Source: Maritimibacter sp. | Lineage (GTDB): Bacteria; Pseudomonadota; Alphaproteobacteria; Rhodobacterales; Rhodobacteraceae | Reading direction: 5' to 3' | NCBI GenBank assembly: GCA_020441225.1 | Contig: JAGRMP010000413.1 | Location: forward strand, 1 to 19,607 | Length of the DNA: 19,607 bases | Shown: one piece after another, positions 4,418 through 19,607 of the stretch | Position numbering within the stretch: position 1 is the stretch's first letter | Layout of the letters: every line of letters starts with the position of its first letter | The notes under the pieces: model-generated | Database searches by the model: none | The model's input: the letters and a program-made list of their open reading frames with translations, nothing else | Told to the model about the DNA's origin: nothing | Made by a program: the position numbers and the translations under genes

Positions 4418-4433
4418 ACCCAGGTCGCGGAGG

Positions 4434-4479: not shown

Positions 4480-4677
4480 TGTCCCCCAGGCCCCGATGTC
4501 TCGGGAAACCTCTTCCGGCATGGCCCGCCCCGCGCCCCAGCACCCCCGCGCGTCGTTTCCGTGGCCGTAACCAATCCCCGCAATTACCGCGCAATCGTCC
4601 GACGCCTTCCACAGTCTTGCCCGATTTGCCGCCGATACAATGCGCCAGTTGGGGCGATGACTGTAGAAAGATAAAAC

Positions 4678-5583: not shown

Positions 5584-5632
5584 TACAGGCAAACGCATAA
5601 ACCTACGAGCTGCCCCCACCGGGGCGAGAAGG

Positions 5633-5667
5633 GCGCCGGGGCGAAACAGCCTCCGGCGCTTTTCTTT
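5633..5667 (+). terminator. rho-independent terminator of the LysR gene
   Basis: GCGCCGG (5633-5639) pairs with CCGGCGC (5653-5659), extended by three inner G-C pairs around a one-base bulge. A TTTTCTTTT tract follows directly at 5660-5667. It stands 50 bases after the LysR stop. Confidence 0.85.
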
Positions 5668-5776
5668 TCCACCGCGGTCGCTTTCGCCACAGGCCCGAAC
5701 CGGTCTAGGGTTGGACAGCCGCCGCACCGCCGCACGGCCCGCCGGGCCGGCTTCCGTTCGAGAAGGAGGACAGGAC

Positions 5777-6031
5777 ATGTCCAGCAACACCCACAAACCG
5801 ACCCTCAACCGCCGCGAATTGGCCGGGCTCGCCGCCGGCGCCGCGGCCCTTGCCGCCGTACCGGCCGAGGCCGCTCAGCCGCATATGACCAATGCGCTCG
5901 CCTATTGCGAAGCCGCGCTCACAGAGCTGCGCAAAGCCAAGGCCAACAAGGGCGGCCACCGGGTCACGGCGATCGAACATCTCGAATATGTCATCGCGCA
6001 GATCAAAGAGGGCATCGCGCACGCAAGCTGA
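5777..6031 (+). CDS. small Tat-exported protein with a KGGHR motif
   Basis: An 84-residue protein starting at an ATG with AAGGAGGA upstream. The N-terminus (NRRELAGLAAGAAALAAVPA, about residues 12-31) has a twin-arginine pair followed by a hydrophobic stretch and an A-E-A-A cleavage-type site, suggesting Tat export. The mature part, about 50 residues, is two helices around ANKGGHRVTAIEHL and AIAQIKEGI-like sequence. I recall the pattern KGGHR, A, I, and a terminal GI segment in small proteobacterial secreted proteins of unknown function. Tat rather than Sec export hints at folding or cofactor loading before export, but apart from the His in GGHR no cofactor motif is visible. It is bounded by a terminator upstream and a strong stem-loop downstream, so it is probably transcribed alone. 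Confidence 0.8.
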   Translation: MSSNTHKPTLNRRELAGLAAGAAALAAVPAEAAQPHMTNALAYCEAALTELRKAKANKGGHRVTAIEHLEYVIAQIKEGIAHAS

Positions 6032-6057
6032 GCCGTTGCGCCGGGCTCCGATCCGGG

Positions 6058-6082
6058 CGGTGCGGCGCAATGTGCCGCACCG
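6058..6082 (+). terminator. stem-loop after the small Tat-exported protein
   Basis: CGGTGCGGC (6058-6066) and GCCGCACCG (6074-6082) form a perfect 9-bp stem with a 7-base loop, 27 bases after the stop codon. No T-tract follows, so termination would be weak or rho-assisted. Confidence 0.45.
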
Positions 6083-6109
6083 GCGCGCGGCAGCGGCATC
6101 GGATCGGCC

Positions 6110-7171: not shown

Positions 7172-7172
7172 A

Positions 7173-8168
7173 TCACTCGGTCGAGACCAGGATCGCTTCG
7201 ACCCGGCGGTTCTGAGTGCGCCCGTCGTCGCTCTGGTTCGATGCAATCGGGGAGAGATAGCCGATCCCCTCGGCTTCGAGCTGCGCCGGGTTGACGGCGA
7301 AATCGTTCACCAGCCGGTCCATCACCGAGGCCGCGCGTCGTTTCGACAGCGAGATATTGCCGGCGAGCGACCCTTCCGCATCGGTATGGCCCACCAGCGC
7401 CACCCGTTTTTCCGGGTTGGCGGCGAGATAGCCCGCAAGCTCCGTGAGCGAGGTATAGCCGCCGGGGCCGAGTTCCGACGACCCGGTGGCAAAGACCAGA
7501 TCGGCCAGGATGAACCGGCCCACCCGCTCCATCGCGGTCCCGATATCGTCGGACAGCACCGCCGGCATGGCGCTGCCGGGCTCGGCCTTGGTCGAGGCCT
7601 GGGGCTCTACCGTGACGTCCGACGCCTCGTCCGGTCCGACATGGATCACCTGGACGAACCCGGCCGAGGCCGAACGGCTGACCAGCAGGCTCACCGCCTC
7701 GGTCGGGTCGCCGGGCAGGATCGCCGCGAGATACCGGTAATCGCCAAGATCGACATGCATGTCCGGCTCGCCGATCACCTCGGTTCCGAAGCGGAAATCG
7801 AACCCGCCGCAGACCGTCTCCGCGCATTCGTAGACGATCTGATAGCCGGCATCGGCAAGCTGCGAGCGCAGGTTGAGCAGGATCTGGTAACTCGACATGC
7901 CGGTGCCGCCGAACCGCCAGGCCTGGCGATGCACCCGGCCCGCGAGCGACATGGACGGCACCGCGCTTTCCGCCTGCCAGCCGCCGATCGGCATCTCGTA
8001 GGTGGCGCCGAGGTCGAGCCGATCCTTGGTCAGGGTCGCCCCCTCCGGCAGGCGCAGCTCCGTCGCCAGCGCCGGCAGCGGCGCGATCGCCGCAAAAACG
8101 GCGACGAGGACGTGCAGACATGGTGTTCGATGTGCGGTTCGCACGGGACCTGCCAATGGGTTTTGCAT
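7173..8168 (-). CDS. exported OmpA-family peptidoglycan-associated protein
   Basis: A 331-residue protein starting at an ATG at 8168, with a long positively charged signal region ending in VLVAVFAAIAPLPALA (about residues 20-35). The middle region contains SSYQILLNLRSQLADAGYQI and YECAETVCGGFDFRFG, similar to the DUF4892-type N-terminal halves of some OmpA-like proteins. The C-terminal third is a clear OmpA peptidoglycan-binding domain: VFATGSSELG, ALVGHTDAEGS with the NISLSKRRAASV helix, and the final NRRVEAIL, with Asp and Arg positions for binding diaminopimelate. It should sit in the periplasm or outer membrane, bound to murein. The ribosome-binding site is weak. An intrinsic terminator upstream (8226-8258) separates it from the GNAT gene. 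Confidence 0.88.
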   Translation of the reverse strand: MQNPLAGPVRTAHRTPCLHVLVAVFAAIAPLPALATELRLPEGATLTKDRLDLGATYEMPIGGWQAESAVPSMSLAGRVHRQAWRFGGTGMSSYQILLNLRSQLADAGYQIVYECAETVCGGFDFRFGTEVIGEPDMHVDLGDYRYLAAILPGDPTEAVSLLVSRSASAGFVQVIHVGPDEASDVTVEPQASTKAEPGSAMPAVLSDDIGTAMERVGRFILADLVFATGSSELGPGGYTSLTELAGYLAANPEKRVALVGHTDAEGSLAGNISLSKRRAASVMDRLVNDFAVNPAQLEAEGIGYLSPIASNQSDDGRTQNRRVEAILVSTE

Positions 8169-8225
8169 TTCCGGCGTCGCGGCCGCGCCGGTTTCGAAGG
8201 TGAAAATACAGTGTTTCCGACGGGC

Positions 8226-8258
8226 AAAAAAGCCCGTTCTGCGCCGCTGGCGGGCTTT
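8226..8258 (-). terminator. rho-independent terminator of the GNAT gene
   Basis: On the minus strand AAAGCCCG and CGGGCTTT form a perfect 8-bp stem around a 14-base loop, followed by further T residues (a run of six in all). It lies 108 bases downstream of the GNAT stop at 8366. The rest of 8169-8365 holds no convincing gene, only the presumed promoter region of the OmpA-like gene. Confidence 0.75.
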
Positions 8259-8365
8259 CAGAGGCCCGTTCGGGCGCCGTTTCGCCGCGCCAGGCCGGCT
8301 TCGGTGGTGTTTGCGCGCCGGCGGGCGCGCGCCGCGCAGACGATTCGATCCCGCAGTCGCCGGGC

Positions 8366-9112
8366 TCAGACCGGCACGTCGGGATGCACCCTGTAGTGGT
8401 AGTGCCCCACCCGGGACATTCCGAGATCGGCGTAGAGCGGGTTGGCCGCGTGATTGCCCTGGGTGACGATCAACCCGAGCGTCTCCGCCCCGTGCCCCTG
8501 CGCCCATTTCGCCGCCGCCCGGATCAGCATCCCGCCGATCCCCTGGCGCCGCTCCTGCGGCTTGACGTAGAGCGCATGCACCATGGCCACCCCGTCGTGG
8601 ATCCCGGCGAATGCCGCGCCCGCCGGGTGGTCGCCGTTGCGCGCGAGCAGCGCCGTCTTCTCGCAGGTCGCGCGCTCCATCACCGCCTGCCGCGCCGCGC
8701 TCACGCCGCCGGCGGTCCAGATGTCGCGGACAAGCTCCAGGGGGGGCCACATCGTGTAGATCGTCGCCCGCGGGATCGGCGCGGCCGCCAGCTCGGCGGT
8801 GGCCTTGGCCCAGAGGTTGACCGGATCGCGGACCCGGTAGCCGTGGGCCTCGAGCAGCCGGTCGAGCCGGTCGTCGCCTTCGCGGATCTGAAACAGCGGG
8901 TCCTGACCGAGCGCCCGCATCGCGTTTTCGGCGATCGGCAGGTCGGCATCGGTTACCGGCCAGGCCTCGGTTGCCGCCGAAACCCGGTTGCCGCCGCCCT
9001 TGCCGTCGCGGATGACCCAGGCCCCCAACGCCTTGCGGCTCGCCGGCGGCCAGGTCGCTTCGCAGACCTCGGCGAGTTTCTGGGTGCCGGGAAGGGCGAT
9101 CGGTTTGTTCAT
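8366..9112 (-). CDS. GNAT-family N-acetyltransferase
   Basis: A 248-residue protein. The C-terminal half carries the GNAT core: MVHALYVKPQERRQGIGGMLIRAA (about residues 180-203), whose RRQGIGG is the acetyl-CoA pyrophosphate-binding loop, then GAETLGLIVTQGNHAANPLYADLGM, the beta5/alpha4 region with its N, A, LY signature. The N-terminal half (AVCEATWPPASRK-like opening, GAWVIRDGKGGGNRVSAA) resembles double-domain GNATs in which the first half is degenerate. The ATG at 9112 overlaps the stop of the upstream CinA-like gene by four bases (ATGA) and has GGAGG seven bases before it inside that gene, so the two are translationally coupled. The acceptor is unknown. Confidence 0.9.
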   Translation of the reverse strand: MNKPIALPGTQKLAEVCEATWPPASRKALGAWVIRDGKGGGNRVSAATEAWPVTDADLPIAENAMRALGQDPLFQIREGDDRLDRLLEAHGYRVRDPVNLWAKATAELAAAPIPRATIYTMWPPLELVRDIWTAGGVSAARQAVMERATCEKTALLARNGDHPAGAAFAGIHDGVAMVHALYVKPQERRQGIGGMLIRAAAKWAQGHGAETLGLIVTQGNHAANPLYADLGMSRVGHYHYRVHPDVPV

Positions 9113-9840
9113 GCGGTGGCCTCCGGAAACAGGTTGGCAAGCTCGACCATCGCCGCCGAGACCAGGGCGCCGTCGGCCCCGCGCACGACGATGTTGGAGC
9201 CGAAAACACCGTCCTGGTTGAACGGATAGGAGCCGATCGACAACAGCGGGAACCGCTCGGCCAGGGCCGCCAGCGGCGCGGCGATGTCGCCTTCCGGCTG
9301 GGTTACGCGAAACGTCTGGCTGAGGAGCGGCGTGCCGCCGTCGAGCGTCGCCACGACCGAGGCGACCATCGCCTCGAAGATCTTCGGCACGCCGGCACAG
9401 ACATGGACGTTGCCGAGCGTGAAACCGGGCGCCGCCGAGATCGGATTGTCGATCAGCGTGGCCCCGTCGGGAATGCGCGCCATCCGCAGCCGCGCGGGCG
9501 TCAGCTCGGCGCCCCGCGCCTCGATGAAAGCGGTGAGGATCTCGCGGGCATCGTCGCGCACGTCGATCCCGACATCGAACGCCGCAGCAATGGCGTCGGC
9601 GGTGATGTCGTCGTGGGTCGGGCCGATCCCGCCCGAAGTAAACACATGGGTATAGCGTTCCGACAGCGCCCGCACCGCGGCGACGATCGCGGCCTGGTCG
9701 TCCGGCACCACCCGGGCTTCGCGCAGATCGATCCCCTGCGCGGTCAGCACGCCCGCCAGGTGGTGGGTATTGCTGTCATGGGTGCGGCCCGACAGGATCT
9801 CGTCGCCGATCACCAGCATTGCCGCGGTTGGATTGGCCAT
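9109..9840 (-). CDS. CinA-type molybdopterin-binding domain protein
   Basis: A 243-residue stand-alone version of the COG1058 domain, which is related to MoaB/MogA. The core motifs are AAMLVIGDEILSGRTHDSN at the N-terminus, VVPDDQAAIVAAV near residue 45, and VFTSGGIGPTHDDITADAIA near 65-85, the pterin-binding loop and its following helix. It lacks the C-terminal CinA/PncC amidohydrolase domain, as many alphaproteobacterial members do. The frame continues upstream to 9963, but the ATG at 9840 is chosen because GGAG lies a few bases before it and conserved sequence begins there. It is the first gene of a coupled pair with the GNAT gene. Family members have been linked to nucleotide pyrophosphatase activity; the role here is unproven. 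Confidence 0.9.
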   Translation of the reverse strand: MANPTAAMLVIGDEILSGRTHDSNTHHLAGVLTAQGIDLREARVVPDDQAAIVAAVRALSERYTHVFTSGGIGPTHDDITADAIAAAFDVGIDVRDDAREILTAFIEARGAELTPARLRMARIPDGATLIDNPISAAPGFTLGNVHVCAGVPKIFEAMVASVVATLDGGTPLLSQTFRVTQPEGDIAAPLAALAERFPLLSIGSYPFNQDGVFGSNIVVRGADGALVSAAMVELANLFPEATA

Positions 9841-9984
9841 TCGGTCTCCGCCCTCCGTCGCCGGTCGTCCTGTTGCCGGCTGCCCTTGTTTCCGCCCGAG
9901 CCTAGACCAGATTTCGCGCGTTTCCAATCGATTGCGGTGCAGTCCCGGACGCCGCGCCGGCACTGTGTCCGGGCTGCGGCCCCG

Positions 9985-10932
9985 TCATTCCGGAACGTCG
10001 TGCAGAAACTCGCGGATCGCTTCGAGAACCTGCGTCGGCCGGGTGTAGGGCAGCGAATGCGGGCCCTCCGGGATCACCTCCTGGTGCGCTTCCCGGTTCC
10101 ACATCGCAAGCTGCCCGACGCCTGCGAGCGGGATGACGGTATCGGTCTCGCCCCAGATCGCCAGCGTCGGGATATACATTGCCGCGATCTCCCGGTGGTC
10201 ATCGGCCACACTCTCCTGCAGCGCATGTCGTTCGGAGGACAAGACGGCGGCAAGATATCCCTTGCGCTTGAGCTCGGCGCTGATCCGGTCGGGCAGATCG
10301 GTGATCACGCTCGCCCCTTTCGCGTCTTCCCGTGCGCTCCGGCGCAAAGCCCAGGGCCCGGTCAGCCCCCAGAGCCAGGCGCCGAACATCCCGCCACGCC
10401 GGGCCAGCGCCAGCGGCTTCGACGCCACGTATCCCATCCCGGCGGGCGCGAGCAGGATCAGCCGTTCGACCCGGTCGCTCTCGGTCGCGGCAAACCGCGC
10501 GGCGATCGCCCCGCCCATCGAATAGCCCAGCAATGTCACCGGCAGGTTGATGCCGAGCGCGTCGAGCAGTCCGGCCAACTGGCGGGCGTGAAAGTCCAGC
10601 GTCTGCGCGCCCTGTCCCCGGTCGGAAAATCCGCGGCCGTAGAGATCGTAGCTCAGCACCCGGTACCGCAGGCCGAGCAGGCCCCGGATCAGCCCGTCGA
10701 ATACCCACATCGGCGTGGTCAGCCCATGCACCAGCACGATCACCCGGTCCGAGCGCGATCCATGCCATTTGTAATGCGTGGCGCCACCGTCGAGATCGGC
10801 GAAATCGCCCGGCGCGCGGCCGCGCATGCGGTCCGTCACCGGCCGGCGCAGCCGTTCGGCGATCCCGGGCCAGGCGACCAGCGCCAGGGCCAGCAGCCCC
10901 AGGGCTGCCACGATCGTAAGAGTTGCCGTCAT
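9985..10932 (-). CDS. alpha/beta hydrolase with N-terminal membrane anchor
   Basis: A 315-residue protein. The first about 22 residues (TLTIVAALGLLALALVAW) form a hydrophobic segment likely to anchor it in the inner membrane. The hydrolase fold follows: IVLVHGLTTPMW is the oxyanion strand, YDLYGRGFSD the next conserved loop, and GYSMGGAIA (about residues 137-145) the nucleophile elbow with Ser. The acid is probably the Asp in WGETDTVIP and the base His lies in EGPHSLPYT. The triad is complete, so it should be active, on an ester or similar substrate I cannot specify. The ATG at 10932 has a distant GAGGGG upstream. It stands alone between the CinA-like operon and a 319-bp intergenic region. 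Confidence 0.9.
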   Translation of the reverse strand: MTATLTIVAALGLLALALVAWPGIAERLRRPVTDRMRGRAPGDFADLDGGATHYKWHGSRSDRVIVLVHGLTTPMWVFDGLIRGLLGLRYRVLSYDLYGRGFSDRGQGAQTLDFHARQLAGLLDALGINLPVTLLGYSMGGAIAARFAATESDRVERLILLAPAGMGYVASKPLALARRGGMFGAWLWGLTGPWALRRSAREDAKGASVITDLPDRISAELKRKGYLAAVLSSERHALQESVADDHREIAAMYIPTLAIWGETDTVIPLAGVGQLAMWNREAHQEVIPEGPHSLPYTRPTQVLEAIREFLHDVPE

Positions 10933-11251
10933 GGTGCGCGTACCGCCCCTCGCTTGCCGTCCGTCCCGCCCCGGCCCCCCCGGGCTTGGTCCGCGCCGAA
11001 CCTAGCGGCGCATCTGGATCTCAATATGTTGAATTCGTGACATTTTCCAACGCCGGGGTCGGGGCGCCCGCCCGGCGGCTGCAGCTGTCCGAAATCACCC
11101 CGCGCATCCGTGTACCAGTTAGCGCTACCGTCAATAAAACCAAAGACTTGAACCCCTGTGCGAGCTCGCACACCTGTACCGCGGCCCCGGTCCCCCGTCC
11201 TTTGCGCGCAAATCGCCCCGCGGCCCGCCCGAGCCTCAGCCGACAGGGCCC
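10933..11251. other. 319-bp intergenic region with operator-like palindromes
   Basis: No convincing gene is seen. It contains a perfect 16-bp palindrome TGTGCGAGCTCGCACA (11157-11172), a TAGCGCTA core (11120-11127) in a context like LacI-family operators, and a TTGACG -35-like hexamer on the minus strand (11129-11134) next to it, pointing toward the hydrolase gene. Closer to that gene, minus-strand TTGGAA and CATATT with a 16-base gap (about 11020-11050) form another weak promoter candidate. The local base composition is lower in GC than the surroundings around 11120-11160. Confidence 0.5.
11157..11172. promoter_or_regulatory. 16-bp perfect palindrome, possible operator
   Basis: TGTGCGAG joined to CTCGCACA without spacer. 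It lies 80 bases beyond the stop of the ornithine-cyclodeaminase-family gene and about 225 bases upstream of the hydrolase gene. There is no T-tract, so a protein-binding site is more likely than a terminator. No matching regulator gene is adjacent. Confidence 0.4.
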
Positions 11252-12166
11252 CTACCGCGCGCGCCACTTCTCGAGGATATAGCGCGCCGTCATCAGATCG
11301 AGATGCGCCCCGCCGCCGTTCTTGAACAGCGTGATCTCGCCCGGCGCCCGGGTAAACACCCCGGCCTCGATATCGTAGAAATCGCCGACGATATCGCTTT
11401 TGGAAATCACCCCCTCTTCGAGCGGGATCTTGAGCTCGCCGATATGCTCCAGCACCGTCGCCCGGCTGTCGACGAACAGCCGCGACCGCTTCAGCGCCGT
11501 GTCGTCGCCCTCGCGCATGTCCGGACGGAATGCGCCGATCAGGTCGATGTACTGGCCGGGAACGAGCCAGTCGCCCTCGATCAAGGGCTCGCGCGACATC
11601 GTCGCGCAACTCACGATGTCGCAGGCCATCACCGCGCTTTCGAGATCGGTCGCCACCAGCGTGTTGGGGAAATGCGCCGCGATCTCCTCGGCATGGGTCG
11701 GGGTGCGGTTCCAGACCATGAACTGCGCCTTGGGGTAGAGCCAGCCATAGGCCTCGCGCATCGCCCGCGCCATCTGGCCGCCGCCGACGATCACGATGCT
11801 GCCGGGCGTTTCCATCGCGAGCAGCCGCGCTGCCACGAGCGAATCGGCGGCCGTCTTCCACTTGGTGACCAGGTGGAAATCCACGATCGCATCGAGCGTG
11901 CCGTGGTCGTCGCAATAAAGCGCGACCGCCCCGTTCACCGCCGGCACCCGGTCGGCGGGGTTCTCGGGAAACACCGTCGCCGTCTTCACCGCCATGCCCA
12001 TCCCGTCGATCCAGGCCGAGCGGTTGAGCAGCGTATCGGCCTCGCGGGTGATGAAACTGTCGGCGATCTCGGCCCGCGGCAGCCGGTGCCCGGCCACAAG
12101 CGCATCGACGAGCTCCCCCCAGTCGAGCAGCTCTTCGGCCTCAAAGGGGATCATCTCGACACTCAT
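11252..12166 (-). CDS. ornithine cyclodeaminase / mu-crystallin family NAD(P)-dependent protein
   Basis: A 304-residue protein of normal family length. The N-terminal substrate region has MAVKTATVFPENPADRVPAVNG (Lys of the active site, about residues 55-76) and VTKWKTAADSLVAARLLA. The Rossmann nucleotide-binding motif is SIVIVGGGQMARAMREA (about 120-136), followed by WNRTPTHAEEI. YIDLIGAFRPDMREGD holds the conserved Asp/Glu region. The family includes ornithine cyclodeaminase, alanine dehydrogenase and cyclic-imino-acid (ketimine) reductases, and these cannot be separated here by eye. The ATG at 12166 overlaps the stop of the upstream HAD gene (ATGA), so the two are coupled. The frame runs open far upstream to 12736, but that part is antisense-frame noise over the HAD gene. 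Confidence 0.92.
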   Translation of the reverse strand: MSVEMIPFEAEELLDWGELVDALVAGHRLPRAEIADSFITREADTLLNRSAWIDGMGMAVKTATVFPENPADRVPAVNGAVALYCDDHGTLDAIVDFHLVTKWKTAADSLVAARLLAMETPGSIVIVGGGQMARAMREAYGWLYPKAQFMVWNRTPTHAEEIAAHFPNTLVATDLESAVMACDIVSCATMSREPLIEGDWLVPGQYIDLIGAFRPDMREGDDTALKRSRLFVDSRATVLEHIGELKIPLEEGVISKSDIVGDFYDIEAGVFTRAPGEITLFKNGGGAHLDLMTARYILEKWRAR

Positions 12167-12846
12167 CGCGCCGCCTCTTCGTCGAGCAGCCCGGCCGCCA
12201 CCAGCCGCGCGGCCCAGCCCTCGGGCCCGTCGAAATGATGCACCTGCCAGCCCCGCGCCGCGGCCGCTTCGATATTGTAACCCATGTCGTCGGCGAACAG
12301 CAGCCGCTCGGGTGCGATACCGCTGTCCTCCTCGACGATCTCGTAGATCCGCGCCGTGGGCTTGGTCACGCCGAGATGGCCCGAGATGTAGCGCCGGTCG
12401 AACTCGGCGAGAAAGGGCCAGGCCGTCTCGGCGACGGCGAACGAGCCCTGGCCGAAATTCGACAGCGCAAACACCGGCACGCCGGCGTCGCGTAACGCCC
12501 GCAGCAGCCGGACGGAATGCGGGATCTCCGGCCCCGCCACGTCGAGCCAGCGGTCGTGCCACATCCGGATCTCGTCGCCGAACTCCGGCACCTGTTCCGC
12601 CGCCGCGTAGACGGTCTCGCGAAAATCCGCACCGCGGTCGACCAGCTCGTTCATCTGATGCAGGTCCACCGCCGCAAACATCGCCTGCGCCCGGTCCGCC
12701 CCGACCATCGCGGCGTAGGCCCGCTCCGGTTGCCATTCGATCAACACGTTGCCGATGTCGAAGACGACGGCCTCGGGTCTGGGCGCGTCGCGGCGGGGGG
12801 CATCGGTCTGGGGCGCGCCGGCGTGGGGGGAGGGGGCTCGACTCAT
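12163..12846 (-). CDS. HAD-superfamily phosphatase-like hydrolase
   Basis: A 227-residue protein with all four HAD motifs. They are AVVFDIGNVLIEW (motif I, nucleophile Asp, about residue 30), FALSNFG (motif II, near 127), the Lys in VTKPTARIYEIV (motif III, near 160) and LLFADDMGYNIEAA (motif IV, near 184-197). The FDIGNV form of motif I, with Gly-Asn after the second position, resembles the YihX-type sugar-phosphate phosphatases rather than the DxD subgroup. The first 24 residues are Pro/Ala/Arg-rich and probably disordered; no better start is available in frame, and the Shine-Dalgarno before 12846 is poor. It is the promoter-proximal partner of the ornithine-cyclodeaminase-family gene. The substrate is unknown. 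Confidence 0.88.
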   Translation of the reverse strand: MSRAPSPHAGAPQTDAPRRDAPRPEAVVFDIGNVLIEWQPERAYAAMVGADRAQAMFAAVDLHQMNELVDRGADFRETVYAAAEQVPEFGDEIRMWHDRWLDVAGPEIPHSVRLLRALRDAGVPVFALSNFGQGSFAVAETAWPFLAEFDRRYISGHLGVTKPTARIYEIVEEDSGIAPERLLFADDMGYNIEAAAARGWQVHHFDGPEGWAARLVAAGLLDEEAAR

Positions 12847-13037
12847 AGGTTCAGACTACCCCCAACCCCCCGCGATGGAAGCGGAAACTGCGCACGGGTA
12901 AAGCTGCCGCAGGTCGCTGTGGCGCCTCGGCATGCCCCGCGCATGCTGCCTGATGTCGGGCTCCGGTTGCCAAGTCCGGCGTTTTCCGTTTCATGGGAGC
13001 CGCGACAGCCGCGAACCCCAAAAGGAGAGCCCGCGAG

Positions 13038-13418
13038 ATGACTACCTGGATCACCATCTGCGACACCTGCAAACGCGACGACTGGGCTGCGCGCGGGGTC
13101 GAAGAGACCGACGGCGAAAAGCTGGCGCGGCTGGTCGAGGCGGCGGCGCAGGGCACCGGTATCCGCACCCGCCGCACCGCCTGCCTGATGGGCTGCGACC
13201 ATTCCTGCAACGTCGCGGTCCAGGCCGCCGGCAAGTTGTGCTACACGCTCGGCCGGTTCGAGCCCGAGACGGAGGCGGCCGAGGGGATCGTCGCCTATGC
13301 CCGGGGCCATGCCGCCTCGGCCACGGGCCAGGTGCCCTATCGCGAATGGCCGCAGGCGGTGAAGGGGCATTTCGTCACCCGCCACCCGCCGCTGCCCGAA
13401 ACCGAGGCCGCCGAATGA
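13038..13418 (+). CDS. DUF1636 small Cys-rich, putative metal-binding protein of the cobalamin block
   Basis: A 126-residue cytosolic protein. Cysteines are arranged as CDTCKRDD near the N-terminus and TACLMGCDHSCNVAV near residue 48-62. This resembles thioredoxin-like ferredoxins and is the usual DUF1636 pattern, so metal or Fe-S binding is likely but not shown. The ATG at 13038 has AAGGAG upstream; the frame is open further but without a ribosome-binding site. Its stop overlaps the cobC start (ATGA), and cobC overlaps cobD in the same way. DUF1636 genes are commonly found with cobalamin biosynthesis genes in Rhodobacterales, which supports a role in cobalt handling or corrin metabolism, but this is inference from neighbours. 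The 191-bp upstream region shows no recognisable cobalamin riboswitch. Confidence 0.85.
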   Translation: MTTWITICDTCKRDDWAARGVEETDGEKLARLVEAAAQGTGIRTRRTACLMGCDHSCNVAVQAAGKLCYTLGRFEPETEAAEGIVAYARGHAASATGQVPYREWPQAVKGHFVTRHPPLPETEAAE

Positions 13419-14416
13419 GCGCCCGCCCTGAACCGCGCGATCAGGGTACGAAGATCGCGGAACCGCGCGATCACGGCGGCGGGCTCGATGACGCGGTCGC
13501 GCTCTACGGCGGGCGGCGCGAGGACTGGCTCGACCTCTCGACCGGGATCAATCCGCATGCCTACCCGCTCCCCGAGATCCCGGCAGACGCCTGGACGGCG
13601 CTCCCTGACCGCCGCGCCGCCGAACGGCTCGAACGTGCGGCGCGGGCCTTCTGGTCGGTCCCCGACGCTGCGGCGGTGCTGGCCGCGCCCGGCGCCTCGG
13701 CGCTGATCGCGGGCATTCCGCATCTGCACCCCGCCGCCCGCGTCCGCATCCCCGCGCGCACATACAACGAGCACGAGGCGGGCTTTCGCGCCGCGGGCTG
13801 GGAGGTGTTGCGCGCCGAGCCCGACGGCGCCCCCGCCGAGGCGCGCGTCGCGGTGCATCCCAACAACCCGACCGGCCACATGTTTTCCGGCGCCGACGAA
13901 CCCGAGCGTCGCGACCTGCTTGTCATCGACGAGAGCTTCGCCGACGTGATCCTCGCCAACTCGCGCGTGCCTCAGATGGCCACCCGCCCCGGCACGCTGA
14001 TCCTGAAATCGCTCGGCAAATTCTGGGGCCTGCCCGGCCTGCGCCTCGGCTTCGCCATCGGCGACCCGGGCCTGATCGCCGCGCTCAAGGACCAGCTCGG
14101 CCCCTGGCCGGTCTCGGGCGTGGCCCAGCATGTGGGCGCGGTGGCGCTCGAAGACATGGTCTGGGCCAACGAAACCCGCCAGGTGCTCTCGGTCGAATGC
14201 GCGCGGCTCGATGCGCTGATGCAGGCGCGGGGCGGCGAGCTCATCGGCGGCACGGTGCTCTACCGGCTGTTCAAGGTGGACGATGCCGCGGCCTTCCAGG
14301 CGCGGCTTGCCGCGGGCCGGGTGTGGAGCCGGGTCTTCCCCTACGACCCGACATGGATCCGGCTTGGCCTGCCGCCCGCGATGGGCTGGGCGCAGCTCGA
14401 AGCGGCGCTCGCATGA
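13415..14416 (+). CDS. cobC: CobC, PLP-dependent threonine-phosphate decarboxylase-like enzyme of cobalamin synthesis
   Basis: A 333-residue fold-type I aminotransferase-like protein. The opening RDHGGGLDDAVALYGG and DWLDLSTGINPHAYPLPEIP are typical of CobC. AVHPNNPTGHMF (about residues 147-158) holds the conserved Asn, LLVIDESFADV the PLP-pyridine Asp, and LILKSLGKFWGLPGLRLGF (about 195-213) the Schiff-base Lys in SLGKF and the phosphate-binding Arg. It should supply the (R)-1-amino-2-propanol O-phosphate used by CobD. The N-terminus is extended by a near-duplicate of its own first codons (EPRDQG then EPRDHGGG), absent from the usual start of the family. Coupled by ATGA overlaps to DUF1636 and cobD. 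Confidence 0.93.
   Translation: MSARPEPRDQGTKIAEPRDHGGGLDDAVALYGGRREDWLDLSTGINPHAYPLPEIPADAWTALPDRRAAERLERAARAFWSVPDAAAVLAAPGASALIAGIPHLHPAARVRIPARTYNEHEAGFRAAGWEVLRAEPDGAPAEARVAVHPNNPTGHMFSGADEPERRDLLVIDESFADVILANSRVPQMATRPGTLILKSLGKFWGLPGLRLGFAIGDPGLIAALKDQLGPWPVSGVAQHVGAVALEDMVWANETRQVLSVECARLDALMQARGGELIGGTVLYRLFKVDDAAAFQARLAAGRVWSRVFPYDPTWIRLGLPPAMGWAQLEAALA
13432..13480 (+). repeat. short direct repeat inside the 5' end of cobC
   Basis: GAACCGCGCGATCA occurs twice with about 31 bases between starts (near 13431 and 13461). It encodes EPRDQ and EPRDH at the CobC N-terminus, consistent with a small local duplication. Confidence 0.6.
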
Positions 14417-15324
14417 GCCACGCGCTCGCGCTCCTCATCGCCCTCGGGCTCGACGCGATCTTCGGCGAGCCGGATGTGCTGTGGAAGCGGGTGCCGCACC
14501 CGGCGGTGCTGATGGGCCGCGCGGTTGGCTGGACCGACCGGATGATGAACCACGGCCACGGCCGGTTGATCGCCGGGGGCCTCGCCCTCGCGGCGCTCGT
14601 GCTCGGGGCCTGGCTCGTCGGGGCCGTCCTCGCCCGCTTCGGCTGGCCGGTCGAGATCCTCGTCGCCGCGATCCTGCTCGCCCATCGCTCGCTCACCGAC
14701 CATGTCCGCGCCGTGGCCGAGGCGCTGTCGCTTTCGGTCGAGGAGGGGCGTGCCGCTGTCGCCCGGATCGTCGGGCGTGACACAGCCGAAATGGACGCCC
14801 CGCGCATCGCCCGCGCGGCCATCGAATCGGCGGCGGAAAACTTCTCCGACGGCGTCGTCGCCCCCGCCTTCTGGTTCCTCGTCGCCGGCCTGCCGGGCCT
14901 CATGGTCTACAAACTGGTCAACACCGCCGACAGCATGATCGGCTACCGCACCCCGCGCCACGAGCTCTTCGGCAAGCCCGCCGCCCGGCTCGACGATCTG
15001 CTCAACTGGATCCCGGCGCGGCTCTCGGCGCTGCTCCTCTATCTCACCAACCCGCGCGGAGGCGGCTGGGCGGTGATTGCGCGCGACGCCCGGCTGCACC
15101 GCTCGCCCAATGCCGGCTGGCCCGAGGCGGCGATGGCGACCGGGCTCGACATCGCGCTGTCGGGCCCGCGCAGCTACCACGGCGAGATGCGCGACGAGCC
15201 CTTCGTGCATGACGAGGGCCGCCACGAGATCGGCGCGGCCGAGATCGACGATGCGGTCGCCGCCCTGTGGCGCGCCTGGGCGGCGCTCGCCGCCCTTGCC
15301 GCCGTCCTCGTCGTGCTGAGCTGA
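14413..15324 (+). CDS. cobD: CobD/CbiB, adenosylcobinamide-phosphate synthase
   Basis: A 303-residue integral membrane protein. It begins with LIALGLDAIFGEPDVLWKRVPHPAVLMGRAVG (diagnostic of CbiB/CobD) and carries membrane segments near residues 48-70 (GGLALAALVLGAWLVGAVLA), around 150-170 and at the C-terminus. The most conserved block, AIESAAENFSDGVVAPAFWFLVAGLPG followed by YKLVNTADSMIGYRTPRHELFG (about 137-185), is intact, as is SPNAGWPEAAMATGLDIALSGPRSYHG. It joins the aminopropanol phosphate arm to adenosylcobyric acid, the step after CobC. The ATG at 14413 overlaps the cobC stop. A GC-rich stretch after the stop (15326-15344) may form the operon's terminator stem, but without a T-tract. 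Confidence 0.96.
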   Translation: MSHALALLIALGLDAIFGEPDVLWKRVPHPAVLMGRAVGWTDRMMNHGHGRLIAGGLALAALVLGAWLVGAVLARFGWPVEILVAAILLAHRSLTDHVRAVAEALSLSVEEGRAAVARIVGRDTAEMDAPRIARAAIESAAENFSDGVVAPAFWFLVAGLPGLMVYKLVNTADSMIGYRTPRHELFGKPAARLDDLLNWIPARLSALLLYLTNPRGGGWAVIARDARLHRSPNAGWPEAAMATGLDIALSGPRSYHGEMRDEPFVHDEGRHEIGAAEIDDAVAALWRAWAALAALAAVLVVLS

Positions 15325-15391
15325 CCCCGGGCGGGCGCCGGGGGCCGAAATCACGACCGCTTGTGGACTTGTCTTTTTCCCACATTTCCGG

Positions 15392-15420
15392 TTTTCACGG
15401 CAGGCTTTGCCCAGTATTGT
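15392..15420 (+). promoter_or_regulatory. candidate sigma-70 promoter of the lytic transglycosylase gene
   Basis: TTTTCA (15392-15397) and TATTGT (15415-15420), each 4/6 to consensus, are spaced by 17 bases and lie 39 bases upstream of the start codon, the usual distance for a short leader. This is a pattern match only. Confidence 0.4.
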
Positions 15421-15458
15421 GCAACGTTAAATCACCTTGAGGGACCCAGAGGCGTACC

Positions 15459-16679
15459 ATGCGTAAATTGCTTTCCACGATTGTTTTGAGCCTTTCCACG
15501 GCCACCGCCAGCACCACCGGCGCGCTGGCCGCGGGCGAAGGCGTCGGCGAGATCCCCGATCCGCTTATCGAATGCGGCGGCTCGTTCTCTTCCTTCGTCG
15601 GCCGGATGAAGGACCTCGCGGTGGCGAACGGCCATGACCGCGGCACCGTCGACCAGTTCTTCGCCTCGGTCTACCAGGACGGCCGCACGCTGGGCGCCGA
15701 CGGGGCGCAGGGCATCTTCAACTCGGGCTTCGTCGATTTCTCGCGCAAGCTCATCTCGCAGAACCGCATCAATGTCGGCCGCTCCAAGCTGCAGGAATAC
15801 GCCTCCGTCTTCGACCAGATCGAGCAGCGCTTCGGCGTCAGCCGCGGCGTGCTCACAGCCTTCTGGGCCTTCGAGACCGATTTCGGCGGCTTCCAGGGCG
15901 ATTTCAACACGCTCAACTCGCTCGTGACCCTCAGCCACGATTGCCGCCGCCCCGGCATCTTCCAGCCGCAGGTGCTGGCGGCGCTCGACCTATACGAGCG
16001 CGGCGATTTCTCGCCCACCGGCACCACCGGCGCCTGGGCCGGCGAGATCGGCATGGTGCAGATGCTGCCCGCCGACATCCGCGACAGCGGCATCGACGGC
16101 GACGGCGACGGCCATGTCGACCTCAAGAAATCCGCCCCCGATGCGCTGCTCTCCGGCGCCAACATGCTCTCGAAACTCGGCTGGCGGCCGAACGAGCCCT
16201 GGCTGCAGGAAGTGATCCTGCCCGCGAATTTCGACTATTCCAGGACCGGTTCGCACCAGAAGTTCCCGACCGGCGACTGGGCGGCGATGGGCGTGCAGCC
16301 GCGCGAAGGCCAGCTCTTCGACAGCGCCCAGGCCTCGATCATCGTGCCCAACGGCCACGGCGGCCCGGCCTTCATCGCCTACCCCAATTTCGACATCTAT
16401 TTCGAGTGGAACCAGAGCTTCACCTACGTGCTGACAGCGGCCTATTTCGCCAACCGGCTCGAAGGCGCCGAAGTGTTCAACGCCGGCAACCCGTCCGGCC
16501 CGCTCGACCAGGGCTCGATGAAACAGCTCCAGCGCAAGCTCGAAGCGCTCGGCCACCATGTCGGCGAGGTCGACGGCATCCTTGGGTACAACACCCGCAT
16601 CGCGGTGCAGAAGGAACAGGAGCGCCTCGGCCTCGTCCCCGACGCCTGGCCGACCTGGGAGCTGCTCAACCGACTGTAA
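15459..16679 (+). CDS. exported MltB-type lytic murein transglycosylase with peptidoglycan-binding domain
   Basis: A 406-residue protein. A signal peptide (MRKLLSTIVLSLSTATAS, then ALAAGE) directs export, and no lipobox Cys is seen, so it is probably soluble periplasmic. The SLT_2/MltB domain covers about residues 35-330. ISQNRINVGRSKL and RFGVSRGVLTAFWAFETDFG contain the catalytic Glu (FETDFG, about residue 142), and GEIGMVQMLPADI is the conserved substrate-binding block. DGDGDGHVDLKKSAPDAL forms the EF-hand-like calcium loop known from this family. A PG_binding_1 domain follows (about 345-406: SMKQLQRKLEALGHHVGEVDG, then NTRIAVQKEQERLGL). It cleaves glycan strands with 1,6-anhydro product formation. 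GAGG precedes the ATG. Confidence 0.94.
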   Translation: MRKLLSTIVLSLSTATASTTGALAAGEGVGEIPDPLIECGGSFSSFVGRMKDLAVANGHDRGTVDQFFASVYQDGRTLGADGAQGIFNSGFVDFSRKLISQNRINVGRSKLQEYASVFDQIEQRFGVSRGVLTAFWAFETDFGGFQGDFNTLNSLVTLSHDCRRPGIFQPQVLAALDLYERGDFSPTGTTGAWAGEIGMVQMLPADIRDSGIDGDGDGHVDLKKSAPDALLSGANMLSKLGWRPNEPWLQEVILPANFDYSRTGSHQKFPTGDWAAMGVQPREGQLFDSAQASIIVPNGHGGPAFIAYPNFDIYFEWNQSFTYVLTAAYFANRLEGAEVFNAGNPSGPLDQGSMKQLQRKLEALGHHVGEVDGILGYNTRIAVQKEQERLGLVPDAWPTWELLNRL

Positions 16680-16690
16680 ATGCGGCGGTC

Positions 16691-16720
16691 TTTACCGAAT
16701 CGTAACCGGTGTGGTAGAGT
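16691..16720 (+). promoter_or_regulatory. candidate promoter of a short antisense-type RNA
   Basis: TTTACC (16691-16696) is followed after 18 bases by TAGAGT (16715-16720), which has a TG-N extension directly upstream (16712-16714), making an extended -10. It starts only 12 bases after the transglycosylase stop. Transcription would begin near 16725-16728, just before the repeated segment that matches the peptide gene's start region. Confidence 0.45.
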
Positions 16721-16729
16721 CTGGATCAG

Positions 16730-16755
16730 CGAAAGTTGATTTCAGTGTTCTCACC
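16730..16755 (+). repeat. direct repeat A (second copy at 16878-16907)
   Basis: A 26-base segment with 24 identities to 16878-16907. It differs by one A/T change, one T/C change and absence of the four bases CTCA. Copies are 148 bp apart in the same orientation. Confidence 0.9.
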
Positions 16756-16765
16756 GAATTCAAGT

Positions 16766-16801
16766 GCCCCGCGGAGTTGCAGCTCCGCGGGGCTTCTCTT
16801 T
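16766..16801 (+). terminator. strong rho-independent terminator
   Basis: GCCCCGCGGAG (16766-16776) pairs perfectly with CTCCGCGGGGC (16783-16793) around TTGCAG, and TTCTCTTT follows directly. The T-rich side is on the plus strand, so it ends transcripts coming from the left (the predicted RNA and any read-through from the transglycosylase gene). For the minus direction the tail is not T-rich. Confidence 0.9.
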
Positions 16802-16807
16802 CCCGGG

Positions 16808-16897
16808 TTACAGCCCGGACCAGAGCCGGATGATCGCGACGATCAGCGTCGCCACCGCGACAGCGACCATCCATCTTCGAAAGTTGTTTTCACTCAG
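16808..16897 (-). CDS. predicted small hydrophobic peptide, possible type I toxin
   Basis: A very short frame ending at TAA (16808-16810), too short for routine gene calling. An AAGGAGG Shine-Dalgarno (16906-16912) lies eight bases before an in-frame CTG at 16897. A GTG at 16906 overlaps the Shine-Dalgarno and is unlikely, and an ATG at 16870 gives a 20-residue form. From the CTG the product is 29 residues: a polar start with RRW, then MVAVAVATLIVAIIRLWSGL, a single short membrane segment with a basic residue near its end. Codons from that Met onward are almost all G/C-ended (one exception in 20), as in real genes here, which supports this frame over the other two. Size and hydrophobicity match type I toxins such as Fst or TisB. 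I recognise no homologue. Confidence 0.5.
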   Translation of the reverse strand: MSENNFRRWMVAVAVATLIVAIIRLWSGL

Positions 16898-16907
16898 CGT
16901 TCTCACC
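16878..16907 (+). repeat. direct repeat B, covering the peptide gene's start region
   Basis: A 30-base copy of the segment at 16730-16755, running from the edge of the Shine-Dalgarno through the start codon and the first codons of the minus-strand peptide gene. It holds four extra bases (CTCA) around the start codon. Confidence 0.9.
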
Positions 16908-16914
16908 TCCTTCC

Positions 16915-16932
16915 ACCGCGACAGGTCGCGGT
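16915..16932 (-). other. hairpin in the peptide gene's leader, directly before the Shine-Dalgarno
   Basis: ACCGCGA (16915-16921) and TCGCGGT (16926-16932) form a perfect 7-bp stem with a 4-base loop, ending three bases from the Shine-Dalgarno. In addition, bases 16937-16944 and 16880-16887 are complementary over 8 bp (ACAACTTT with AAAGTTGT on the plus strand). The leader can therefore close a larger fold that encloses the hairpin, Shine-Dalgarno and start codon. Folded leaders of this kind are common in type I toxin mRNAs. Confidence 0.7.
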
Positions 16933-16954
16933 AGGGACAACTTTAGGGAAGTAG

Positions 16955-16972
16955 GTTAAACAAGCGTTTAAC
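16955..16972. promoter_or_regulatory. 18-bp inverted repeat, possible repressor operator and promoter
   Basis: On the minus strand GTTAAAC, four bases, GTTTAAC is a perfect inverted repeat whose AAAC-N4-GTTT core resembles TetR-family operators (for example the PsrA type). Its right arm overlaps a minus-strand -10 candidate TTTAAC, with GGGACA 17 bases upstream (4/6 each), placing transcription start about 45 bases before the peptide's Shine-Dalgarno. It also lies 34 bases upstream of the plus-strand gene at 17006, so it could control both directions. Confidence 0.5.
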
Positions 16973-17005
16973 TCCTGTGTCCCGCAGGTCTGAATCGAGG
17001 CCCCC

Positions 17006-17839
17006 TTGGACGGCGAAGTCGCACAACTTGCAGCCCTGGTCATCTCGGCCAATCACCGGCTCTCCCACCCGAAAGACCCGATGCGCTGGTTCGCCACGCA
17101 GCGGGCCTTCGCGCGCTGCGGCTCGATCAGCTTCGACATCGCCACCAAGCGGGGCGAGCGAAAGCCGGTCCTGACCACCATGGCCGAAACCCCGCCCTCC
17201 TGGCTCGACCAGCTCGCGCGCTCCGGCACCAAGCGGGTGCGGCTGGGTTTCGCGCGGCAGGACGAAGAGGTCATCCCCGGCGAGACCATCCCCGACCGGA
17301 TCGCGGCGGGCTTTGCCGGCGGCGGCAGTCACTGGACCATGACCACCGAGACCGACGACGGACGGGCGCTCGGCTGGCACGGCACCTGGAAAGTGGCCTA
17401 TCCCAACGCGCGCGACGGGCGGGTCTGGGCGGTGCGCTACACCGCCACCGCGGCCGAACCGCAGGACCCGGGCCGCGACATCGAGGCTGCCGCGGTCGAG
17501 CTGCGCCACGCGCTGGCCGAGATGAGCGAATTTGCCTGGGAACGCGACGCCAAGGCCGCCAACATGCGCTTCACCTCGGCGCTGGCGCTCCTTGAGGGCG
17601 CGCCCGACCCGCTGCCGATAGACAACCCCGAAGGCCCCGCCGACACGCTCAGCGAGCCCGCGCGCCGCCTGCTCCACGCGAGCCAGCGCGGCTGGGTGTT
17701 CGACAACCTCGAGATCTGGGGAAAGCTCAAGCTCGACGAGGCCGAATGGCGCGACCACGCCCGCCGGTCCGAAGCGCTCTACGACGCGGTCACCGCCGCC
17801 ATGGTCGCCGCGGCCAATTCCGGCGCGCCGGAGCGCTAG
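17006..17839 (+). CDS. unknown protein, 277 residues
   Basis: I do not recognise this protein. The start is the TTG at 17006, preceded by GAGG five bases away; no ATG or GTG is near. It has no signal peptide or membrane segment. The N-terminal half contains SHPKDPMRWFATQRAFARCGSI-like sequence and a strand-rich part around SHWTMTTETDDGRALGWHGTWKVAYPNARDGRVWAVRYTA-type content (about residues 110-150). The C-terminal half is helical (AAVELRHALAEMSEFAWERDAKAANMRF and EARRLLHASQRGWVFDNLEIWG-like stretches) and rich in conserved-looking Trp. Codon use matches the neighbours and the frame is intact, so it is a real gene. It is convergent with the DddP-like gene with ten bases between stops, and a possible operator (16955-16972) lies just upstream. 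Confidence 0.8.
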   Translation: MDGEVAQLAALVISANHRLSHPKDPMRWFATQRAFARCGSISFDIATKRGERKPVLTTMAETPPSWLDQLARSGTKRVRLGFARQDEEVIPGETIPDRIAAGFAGGGSHWTMTTETDDGRALGWHGTWKVAYPNARDGRVWAVRYTATAAEPQDPGRDIEAAAVELRHALAEMSEFAWERDAKAANMRFTSALALLEGAPDPLPIDNPEGPADTLSEPARRLLHASQRGWVFDNLEIWGKLKLDEAEWRDHARRSEALYDAVTAAMVAAANSGAPER

Positions 17840-17849
17840 ACCCCGGGCC

Positions 17850-19097
17850 TCAGCCCAGCAGCGCCGCCTCGAAGGGGAACCGCGACAACAGCTCGGTGCC
17901 GGTCTCGGTCACTACGAGCTGCTGTTCCAGCTTCACCCCTTCGCCCGCCGCAGCACCGATGAAGCTCTCGACGCAGAGCACCATGCCCGGCACGATCTCG
18001 CCGTCATAGCCCGCCTCGGGAAAATCGCCGTGGTGGCACAGGTAAGGATACTCGCCGGTCATCCCGCAGCCATGCGCCGACAGGTAATAGCGGTTGGCGT
18101 GGAACCTGTCGGGGATATCCCAGGCCGCGTTCGAATAGTCGCGAAAGCTCATGCCCGGACGGAGGATCCCTGCATTGTGCTGCACCTGCTCGTGGGCGGT
18201 CTTGTAGAGTTCGCGCTGCGCGTGCGTGGGCGCATCCGGCCCGGCGTGGAAGGTGCGCGAGAAATCGGCATAATAGCCGTGCACCCCGACCACATCGGTA
18301 TCGAGCGCGATGAGTTCGTTCGGCCCGATGACCTTGTCGCCGGTCTCCTGAAACCACGGGTTGGTCCGCGCGCCGGAGTTGAGCAGCCGCGTTTCGATGT
18401 AATCGCCGTTGTCCGCGATCACGGCGCGGTGCAGCACCGACCACAGTTCCGCCTCGGTCAGCCCGGGCCGGATCGCGTCCCGCAGCGCCGCCACCCCGCG
18501 CTCGGTCGAGCGCAGCGAGGCGAGCACGCATTTCATCTCTTCCGTCGACTTGACCGCCCGCGCCCTCTCGACCGGTTCCTGCGCATCGACCAGCCGCAGC
18601 CCTTCCGCGGCAAGCGCCAAGACCGCGCCCGCGTTCAGCCGCTCGACCCCGACCGTGGCGCCGCGCCCGCCGGTGAGCTCGGCGATCAGCGCTGCCGTCT
18701 CGCGCGCCCAGTCCCGCTCCCGCCCGGCGATCCCGGGCCCGGCGGCGACATAGCTCGCGGTCAACGCCGGGCGCACCTCGTCCACCGTCTCGAACCCCGC
18801 TGCGAGATGTTCGCAGCCGGTGAACTCGAACAGGATCGACCGGTCGGCCGTCATCACCAGGTAGCGCGAAGGGGCATTGCGGGAGGTAAAGACCTGCATG
18901 TTGCGGGTGCCGGTGGCATAGCGGATGTTGACCGCGTCCGACAGGATCACCGCGTCTATACCGCGCGCCGCCATCTCGGCACGCACCCGCGCCTGCCGGT
19001 AGCCGCGCACCGCCACATGGTCGATTGCGAGCCCGTCGTTGTCGAGCTGCGCAAGTCCCGCCAGATCGCCGCGCTCTGCATGCCAGTCGATATCCAT
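17850..19097 (-). CDS. M24-family metalloprotein related to DddP, lacking the DMSP-lyase catalytic Asp
   Basis: A 415-residue pita-bread-fold protein close to DddP and Xaa-Pro peptidases. The N-terminal creatinase-like domain has AVNIRYATGTRNMQVF (about residues 43-58), and the catalytic domain has ETRLLNSGARTNPWFQETG. Metal ligands are all present with DddP spacing: Asp-x-Asp in ALDTDVVG, Asp in YADFSRTF, His in SAHGCGMTGEYP, Glu in LCVESFIG and Glu in KLEQQL. In DddP the residue six after the His is the Asp proposed as catalytic base; here it is Gly (HGCGMTGE), so lyase activity is doubtful. The ATG at 19097 is preferred over one at 19136 because conserved sequence begins there, but the ribosome-binding site is weak. 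It could be a peptidase or another C-S or C-N lyase. Confidence 0.85.
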   Translation of the reverse strand: MDIDWHAERGDLAGLAQLDNDGLAIDHVAVRGYRQARVRAEMAARGIDAVILSDAVNIRYATGTRNMQVFTSRNAPSRYLVMTADRSILFEFTGCEHLAAGFETVDEVRPALTASYVAAGPGIAGRERDWARETAALIAELTGGRGATVGVERLNAGAVLALAAEGLRLVDAQEPVERARAVKSTEEMKCVLASLRSTERGVAALRDAIRPGLTEAELWSVLHRAVIADNGDYIETRLLNSGARTNPWFQETGDKVIGPNELIALDTDVVGVHGYYADFSRTFHAGPDAPTHAQRELYKTAHEQVQHNAGILRPGMSFRDYSNAAWDIPDRFHANRYYLSAHGCGMTGEYPYLCHHGDFPEAGYDGEIVPGMVLCVESFIGAAAGEGVKLEQQLVVTETGTELLSRFPFEAALLG

Positions 19098-19224
19098 GAT
19101 GTCCCGCCGCTCCCGGTGGTTCTGTCGCGGCCCCACCCGACCATGTCGCGGCCCCGCCGCGCCACGCTGGAGCGACGGTTTCGCGGCGATCGCCGACGCT
19201 TCTACCCGTGCCGGGTCGCGCGCC

Positions 19225-19607
19225 TCAGGCGGCGAGCCCTTTCGCGCCCATGTCCAGGTACTTCCTGCGCCGCTGCTGTTTGAGCGCCTTGCGGTCCTTG
19301 CCTGCCAGCGCCTTGAGCTCGGCTTCCAGCGCCTTGCCCACCGCGCCGATGGTCTGGCCGCGGCCCCGCTGCGCGCCTCCCACCGGCTCCGAGATGATCC
19401 GGTCGATCACGCCAAGTTGCTTGAGATCCTGCGCGGTGAGCCGGAGCGCCTCCGCCGCCTCGCGCATTTTCTCGGCATCTTTCCACAGGATCGAGGCGCA
19501 GCCCTCGGGCGAGATCACCGAGTAGATCGAATGTTCCAGCATCATCACCGTGTTGCCGGTGGCAAAGGCCACCGCCCCGCCGGAGCCGCCCTCGCCGATG
19601 ATGACCG
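19225..19607 (-). CDS. accA: acetyl-CoA carboxylase carboxyltransferase subunit alpha, C-terminal part
   Basis: The frame enters from the right edge and ends at TGA (19225-19227), giving about the last 127 residues; the N-terminus lies outside. The visible part starts with [18 protein letters not shown], the glycine-rich carboxyltransferase core that binds carboxybiotin and acetyl-CoA, then [22 protein letters not shown], the strongly conserved AccA signature, and [19 protein letters not shown]. The basic C-terminal tail ([12 protein letters not shown]) is typical. AccA forms the alpha2beta2 carboxyltransferase with AccD in fatty acid synthesis. It lies 127 bp upstream of the M24 gene's stop side neighbour on the same strand, with nothing else recognisable in that gap. 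Confidence 0.96.

Follow-up and report, generated by a model that had tools for sequence, protein, structure and literature searches.

The window analysed here is a 19,607-nucleotide stretch of Maritimibacter sp. DNA (contig JAGRMP010000413.1, positions 1 to 19,607). Our subject is a compact unit at 16691-16971, which lies within the 16680-17005 interval between a gene of the mltB family and a gene at 17006 (Table 1). A short minus-strand gene for a hydrophobic peptide and a plus-strand unit predicted to yield a small RNA run toward each other, and the promoter-like pair of the RNA begins 11 bases past the mltB stop. Elsewhere the window carries an IS1595-family transposase at 1972-2997 (+) and an M24-family protein at 17850-19136 (-), whose best NCBIfam match is the DMSP lyase DddP at 286.9 bits, against a curated cut-off of 600 bits.

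Table 1. Features of the unit and its two neighbours (positions in the window)
Feature	Position	Strand	Basis or remark
Lytic murein transglycosylase gene, mltB family	15459-16679		TIGR02283
Small-RNA promoter-like pair: TTTACC at 16691 and extended -10 TGTGGTAGAGT at 16710-16720	16691-16720	+	
Repeat copy in the RNA unit, complementary to the start region of the peptide mRNA	16725-16755	+	
Antitoxin RNA (predicted), about 75 nt, with its start placed from the -10	16727-16801	+	RNA model R1
RNA stem-loop 1, loop side opposite the Shine-Dalgarno sequence	16736-16763	+	Predicted fold
Terminator hairpin, probably common to both convergent transcripts	16766-16793		Covariation
Predicted hairpin around the stop codon	16796-16825	-	Single-sequence fold
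Peptide gene, 29 codons, CTG start, TAA stop	16808-16897	-	Frame, codon variation, 98 database relatives
Repeat copy, from the Shine-Dalgarno sequence over the start codon to codon 8	16873-16907	-	
Extended Shine-Dalgarno sequence AAGGAGGTGA	16903-16912	-	AAGGAGG lies 8 bases before the CTG
Leader hairpin, at the predicted 5' end of the mRNA for the peptide	16913-16934	-	Covariation
Possible -10 (TAAAGT) of the peptide promoter	16940-16945	-	Position only; weakly conserved
CtrA-type box, 7 of 8 to TTAA-N7-TTAA	16956-16971	-	
Gene at 17006	17006		Divergent; without Pfam or NCBIfam match

A first-pass annotation, made from the letters of the window, had proposed a type I toxin-antitoxin locus at this place. 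The minus-strand frame of about 29 codons that it described is there, with AAGGAGG eight bases before a CTG start, and encodes LSENNFRRWMVAVAVATLIVAIIRLWSGL. Its plus-strand unit also has the extended -10 it had reported and a terminator inverted repeat with 14-nt arms (93 percent) whose outer 11 bp are perfect, followed by an interrupted T tail (TTCTCTTT). The direct repeat that it had placed in the RNA unit and over the Shine-Dalgarno sequence and start of the peptide was recovered as two copies that align with one 4-base gap. Prediction of the RNA-RNA interaction, which it had suggested as a check, gave a duplex of the two copies at -38.9 kcal/mol, with helices of 15, 9 and 3 bp. Within the window, the repeat score of 39 was reached by none of 5000 dinucleotide shuffles (null maximum 36). 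However, 288 of the 2640 same-geometry pairs elsewhere in this GC-rich window reach that score, as do 4 of 344 when only pairs with a first part below 60 percent GC are counted. The window's repeat is therefore not exceptional among pairs of its geometry, so that the single sequence is only suggestive and the relatives decide.

We used mltB to fetch the best 80 related loci, and the unit was present within the fetched flanks of 16 of them, a patchy distribution in which some of the 16 hold two or three copies in tandem. Strains of Maritimibacter, Sinisalibacter and Roseovarius are among the carriers. A covariance model of the RNA, R1, built from 21 RNAs with promoter, found the RNA in 23 of 394 Rhodobacteraceae genomes, which is a lower bound given the strict filters of that search. 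In genome sets from three genera, with known carriers included, the RNA occurs in 28 of 84, 6 of 8 and 3 of 7. A peptide-profile search at E 0.01 returned 38 of the 394 genomes, comprising all 23 RNA genomes, in each of which a peptide match stands beside the RNA, and 15 others. Three of these extra genomes were read: one holds a divergent unit (L136, where a diverged RNA side lies, by eye, beside the peptide match), one a relic (L138) and one a chance match inside a longer frame (L140). Class-wide searches for the RNA and for the peptide each hit 1 of 385 genomes, the query genome itself. By these searches the unit is a member of a conserved Rhodobacteraceae family. The observation of the first-pass annotation is confirmed and extends further than it had described: it had not mentioned a family, a CtrA-type box in the peptide promoter, covariation of the 5' leader hairpin or a terminator likely to be shared.

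Comparisons within the family were made on 40 units, 20 from the window and the loci fetched with mltB and 20 from the R1 search (L092 to L111). Left out were the degenerate second unit of L029, an RNA of L018 without peptide gene (included in the RNA model all the same), L136, L138 and L145; L106 was counted as having no start codon. A second set, collected later, comprised 28 matches, or 27 units after removal of one already among the 40. It still includes L155 and L157b (the second L029 unit); counts over 26 units omit L155, and the test of disjoint pairs omits both.

Covariation of the repeat copies among relatives, another check that had been suggested at the outset, was found locus by locus. 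In the 40 units the RNA copy scored a mean of 34.25 against its own peptide copy and 19.4 against those of others, while the best of 20,000 permutations reached 23.3. The own partner ranked first in 27 units. Counting against the pattern are the other 13, in which it ranked 22nd (L009), 13th (L111, which carries a broken peptide frame), seventh (L043), sixth (L033) or, in nine cases, second to fourth. Set against the nearest relative as judged outside the repeats, the own partner won in 37 units, tied in 2 and lost in 1, and in the opposite direction it won in 37 and lost in 3. Predicted duplex energies gave the same picture, at -38.8 for own and -24.2 for other partners, with the own partner first in 29 of 40. 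The second set behaved similarly in its means (34.8 for own against 21.0 for other partners in the 27 units, with a permutation maximum of 26.7); however, the own partner came first in only 11 of 27, since many of these units are close orthologues. When related units from the two sets (65 units) were arranged in 32 disjoint pairs, own beat cross 24 times, with 7 ties and 1 loss, and in a control segment taken from the peptide gene the count was 13 to 6. With a pairing sequence particular to each locus, units that share a genome would be expected to prefer their own partners, and in each of the three same-genome paralogue pairs tested this was the case for each RNA. Against this, the two L008 units retain strong cross-pairing (-32.2 and -34.2, versus -41.1 and -39.7 for own partners). 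Co-variation of this kind is what one would expect if RNA and mRNA pair through codes specific to each locus, and the predicted antitoxin RNA is, in its sequence, complementary to the putative toxin mRNA, as in type I systems.

Two other origins of this pattern were considered. Because two similar sites flank a short region, the direct repeats might be operators for a DNA-binding protein instead of RNA pairing sites. Yet one copy overlies codons and the Shine-Dalgarno sequence, and a single protein serving all loci should hold its sites to one sequence; we rejected the operator reading, which is extremely improbable, because the repeats drift between loci and nevertheless match inside each locus. 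Gene conversion, which can homogenise the repeats of one locus, might alternatively maintain their identity with no pairing function. We regard this as very unlikely, given that in the copies listed for the two sets the likeness ends near the same two points and the gap between the halves varies by unit, and tracts so short and in such positions are unexpected from conversion.

The peptide frame, whose conservation in relatives had been the third check suggested, is kept across the family. Over codons 9-26 the pairwise mismatch was 0.32, 0.18 and 0.47 at codon positions 1, 2 and 3, a pattern by which the gene is under coding-type variation. The peptide is exactly 29 residues long in 31 of 40 first-set and 20 of 26 second-set units. 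Six first-set units are altered, through a shifted frame (L111), a missing start (L106), an early stop (L018b) or a lost stop (L002, L033 and L107). A database search with longer frames yielded 98 relatives of the peptide, of which those named are hypothetical or uncharacterised proteins. For 19 members of the family no known toxin family was matched in Pfam or NCBIfam, the best hits being YtcA (E 0.0063, Pfam) and MmpB (E 0.0044, NCBIfam). Trp often trails the membrane helix (RLWIG), and a charged tail is absent. Folding predicted a hairpin around the stop codon for the window's unit and for most of 14 relatives examined in this way.

The start codon of the family seems to be mostly CTG and less often TTG or GTG. 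At this position the first set has CTG in 29 units, TTG in 4, GTG in 4, ATA in 1, CTT in 1 and none in 1 (L106); in the second set CTG was found in 22 of 26 units, all those for which the script found a frame, the other 4 yielding none. Since 17 of the 40 units carry an in-frame ATG two codons before the CTG position, the CTG start is one that we infer for them. In five units (L011, L068, L075, L105 and L110) an in-frame stop lies between the Shine-Dalgarno sequence and a TTG or GTG start, so translation there must begin at or beside the codon at the CTG position. The upstream ATG was rejected as a common start on account of these stops and because it would crowd the Shine-Dalgarno sequence.

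On the RNA side, the first promoter element is strongly conserved. With the 40 units registered on their best TTTAC match, the columns read T39 T39 T40 A36 C39, and the element stands at -36 in 35 units and at -35 in 5. A looser second element follows TTTAC by one helical turn, a layout that matches that of the peptide promoter's CtrA-type box; a CtrA-type site of the same strength occurs in the RNA promoter of only 3 of 40 units at N7 spacing and 7 of 40 at N6. Stem-loop 1 of the RNA is moderately more stable than shuffles (mean z -1.3, below -1 in 22 of 40 units) and was not reported by RNAalifold, which predicts the terminator only. For the terminator, 8 of the 12 predicted pairs have changed on both sides. 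In the family the hairpin has T-rich sequence on both sides. The peptide transcript would probably end at the same hairpin, as the T count past it on the peptide side averages 4.2 in 8 positions across the family (1.77 expected), with at least 4 in 29 of 40 units. In the window this tail is weak, with 3 T in 8, and the T-rich stretch doubles as an arm of stem-loop 1.

The hairpin at the predicted 5' end of the peptide mRNA is likewise marked by covariation. Six of its 9 pairs have changed on both sides, 90.3 percent of cells are paired over the 40 units, and 38 cells have changed on both sides compared with 12.3 in shuffles; the outermost pair is unpaired in 19 of 40. A stem sequestering the Shine-Dalgarno sequence appears in the window's fold and in some, not all, of 15 folds examined. 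A gathering scan of Rfam for a known RNA family was empty, and a permissive scan gave 5 sub-threshold matches, the best being F6 over the terminator.

Upstream of the leader hairpin lies a box with the arrangement TTAA-N7-TTAA. Within the 60 bases upstream of the hairpin it was found at 7 of 8 or better in 23 of 40 units, compared with a mean of 0.67 and a maximum of 3 units over 300 rounds of shuffling; other spacings gave 0 to 6 units, and rearranging the same letters gave at most 7. The box lies at -36/-37 relative to the hairpin, with 24 matches in 160 positions at -38 to -35 and 1 in 15,880 elsewhere. At this fixed place at least 6 of 8 letters agree in 34 of 40 units and fewer in 6, and the box is perfect in only 2. 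In the second set the corresponding counts were 14 in 156 positions versus 1 in 10,374, with 6 of 8 or better in 23 of 26 units. In the available text of PMC4046655, PMC9437464 and PMC6180460 this consensus, and a place near -35 in activated promoters, are described for CtrA. The box has both the consensus and, counted from the inferred mRNA start, the place near -35. This is the position expected of an activator, and the peptide is therefore probably produced in cells with active CtrA. The two literature matches for CtrA together with a type I toxin each name both terms once.

The box could instead serve another regulator or the neighbouring gene. It is a predicted CtrA site, and in the window its position is upstream of the divergent gene at 17006 as well. 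What argues for a role in peptide expression is that the box holds its distance from the mRNA hairpin where the neighbours differ: in both tandem L008 units (6 and 7 of 8) and, among loci without mltB at hand, in L095, L096 and L104 (7 or 8 of 8), although L108 has none there. We therefore consider the other-regulator reading rather unlikely, and favour CtrA acting on the peptide gene.

Whether the peptide is a toxin was judged by analogy and from a few decayed loci. The loss of the frame in close relatives with neighbours kept had been named beforehand as evidence against a toxin-antitoxin locus, and this applies in part: the unit is patchy, and L003, where mltB is 84 percent identical, keeps only what looks by eye like an RNA-side remnant. 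In L155 (1500-1740) an intact-looking antitoxin RNA remains, with only the last codons of the peptide left and its leader and promoter gone. L018 (5455-6330) has three tandem RNA units. Two are accompanied by a peptide gene, which in one of them has an early stop, and the third has a complete RNA but no complete peptide gene; a fourth unit of that genome lies on another contig (L145). The second L029 unit has an RNA without hairpins and, by eye, a CTG out of frame with the membrane segment, and the script found no frame in it. This pattern of decay, though seen in few cases, fits a toxin, and we conclude that the peptide is probably one.

It is also conceivable that the peptide has no toxic activity and acts as a small membrane regulator, with an envelope enzyme, the divisome or a process under CtrA control as its target. 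The antisense RNA would then set its dose, and no toxin-antitoxin system would be involved. The CtrA-type promoter would suit such a regulator, as would the recurrent site near a lytic transglycosylase gene, since among 20 loci picked independently of mltB, 16 carry this gene within the 3.1-kb locus. Some carriers have the unit on long contigs, that of L043 being titled chromosome; the plasmid and phage collections gave no match to the unit, a search in which the 29-residue tblastn query is insensitive, and among viral contigs none of 12 pattern matches was confirmed. The preference of same-genome paralogues for their own partners and the pattern of decay, however, are better suited to an antitoxin, and the anatomy resembles par. 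We consider the regulator reading unlikely and retain that of a probable toxin.

The par-like anatomy that the first-pass annotation had proposed recurs across the family. The available text of PMC7472228 lists as features of par loci convergent promoters, a shared terminator, direct repeats over the start, a 5' helix, a stem over the Shine-Dalgarno sequence, a GUG start and repeats that differ between loci. As in par of pAD1 (Fst RNA I/RNA II, Enterococcus faecalis), predicted promoter-like elements here converge on a terminator, one that may serve both transcripts although its T tail on the window's peptide side is weak; direct repeats place the antitoxin complementarity over the toxin Shine-Dalgarno sequence and start; the toxin mRNA has a 5' helix (here the covarying hairpin, its position following from an inferred mRNA start); the start is non-AUG (GUG in Fst, apparently CTG here); and the membrane peptide has about 30 residues (33 in Fst). 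The interaction repeats also differ by locus, which for par is thought to give specificity (PMC7472228, available text). In contrast to Fst, the peptide lacks both a charged tail and the Fst/Ldr superfamily signature of a Trp between membrane helix and charged C-terminus. Unlike par, the family has alphaproteobacterial hosts, a CtrA-type box, an RNA of about 75 nt instead of about 40, and one start-region copy instead of a DRa/DRb pair. On paper, the system would work like par, and no kinship to Fst is implied.

Other type I systems share single traits with it. Ldr/Rdl of enterobacteria likewise combines a small membrane peptide and an antisense RNA in a Gram-negative; its regulation is distinct from that of Fst according to the available text of PMC7472228, which places Ldr in enterobacteria and par-like loci in Firmicutes, and our peptide has no Pfam match to any toxin family. 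TisB/IstR-1 has a 29-residue hydrophobic peptide and a regulated toxin promoter (LexA in TisB), but its genes are divergent and the standby site bound by its RNA is distant from the start, as given in the available text of PMC4147584. TxpA/RatA of Bacillus subtilis has convergent genes that overlap at their 3' ends, but works, on the same source, by mRNA degradation through that overlap and not over the start. Among the literature matches listed, from a library that covers a minority of subscription papers, none describes such a system in alphaproteobacteria.

Taken together, we think it quite probable that the units form a type I toxin-antitoxin family that is new, has no counterpart in the libraries searched and combines par-like RNA control with a probable CtrA input. 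From the architecture, the co-variation, the coding constraint and the conserved box seen in these sequences, the following mechanism may be drawn. A 29-residue single-helix membrane peptide would be translated from a short mRNA, some 170 nt long, that begins with a hairpin and carries an extended Shine-Dalgarno sequence and a weak CTG start. The convergent RNA of about 75 nt would pair in the cell across the Shine-Dalgarno sequence, the start codon and the first eight codons and block translation, with one terminator probably ending both transcripts. The RNA would have its own promoter and, at loci where it directly follows mltB, might also be supplied by read-through from that gene. When CtrA lifts the peptide mRNA above the supply of RNA, which would set the threshold, the peptide would be made and insert in the membrane, where it may be toxic.

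More broadly, and stopping a little short of calling it probable, we propose that Alphaproteobacteria arrived independently at a convergent-repeat antisense circuit like that of the Firmicute par/Fst loci, with an unrelated membrane peptide starting at CTG at its centre, and brought it under the control of CtrA. The peptide would be a self-acting membrane toxin released in CtrA-active cells, a state associated with motility, quorum sensing and gene transfer agents, and the antitoxin RNA, often directly behind a murein transglycosylase gene, could be topped up by its read-through. As the gene family seems mostly to start with CTG, annotation expecting ATG, GTG or TTG would misplace or miss its members. 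The co-drifting repeats amount to dozens of natural RNA pairs predicted to be partly orthogonal, and the CtrA-type box of the toxin promoter makes a link between control by cell state and self-poisoning testable in marine bacteria. If true, a par-type RNA switch around an unrelated peptide outside Firmicutes would suggest that this circuit arose more than once.
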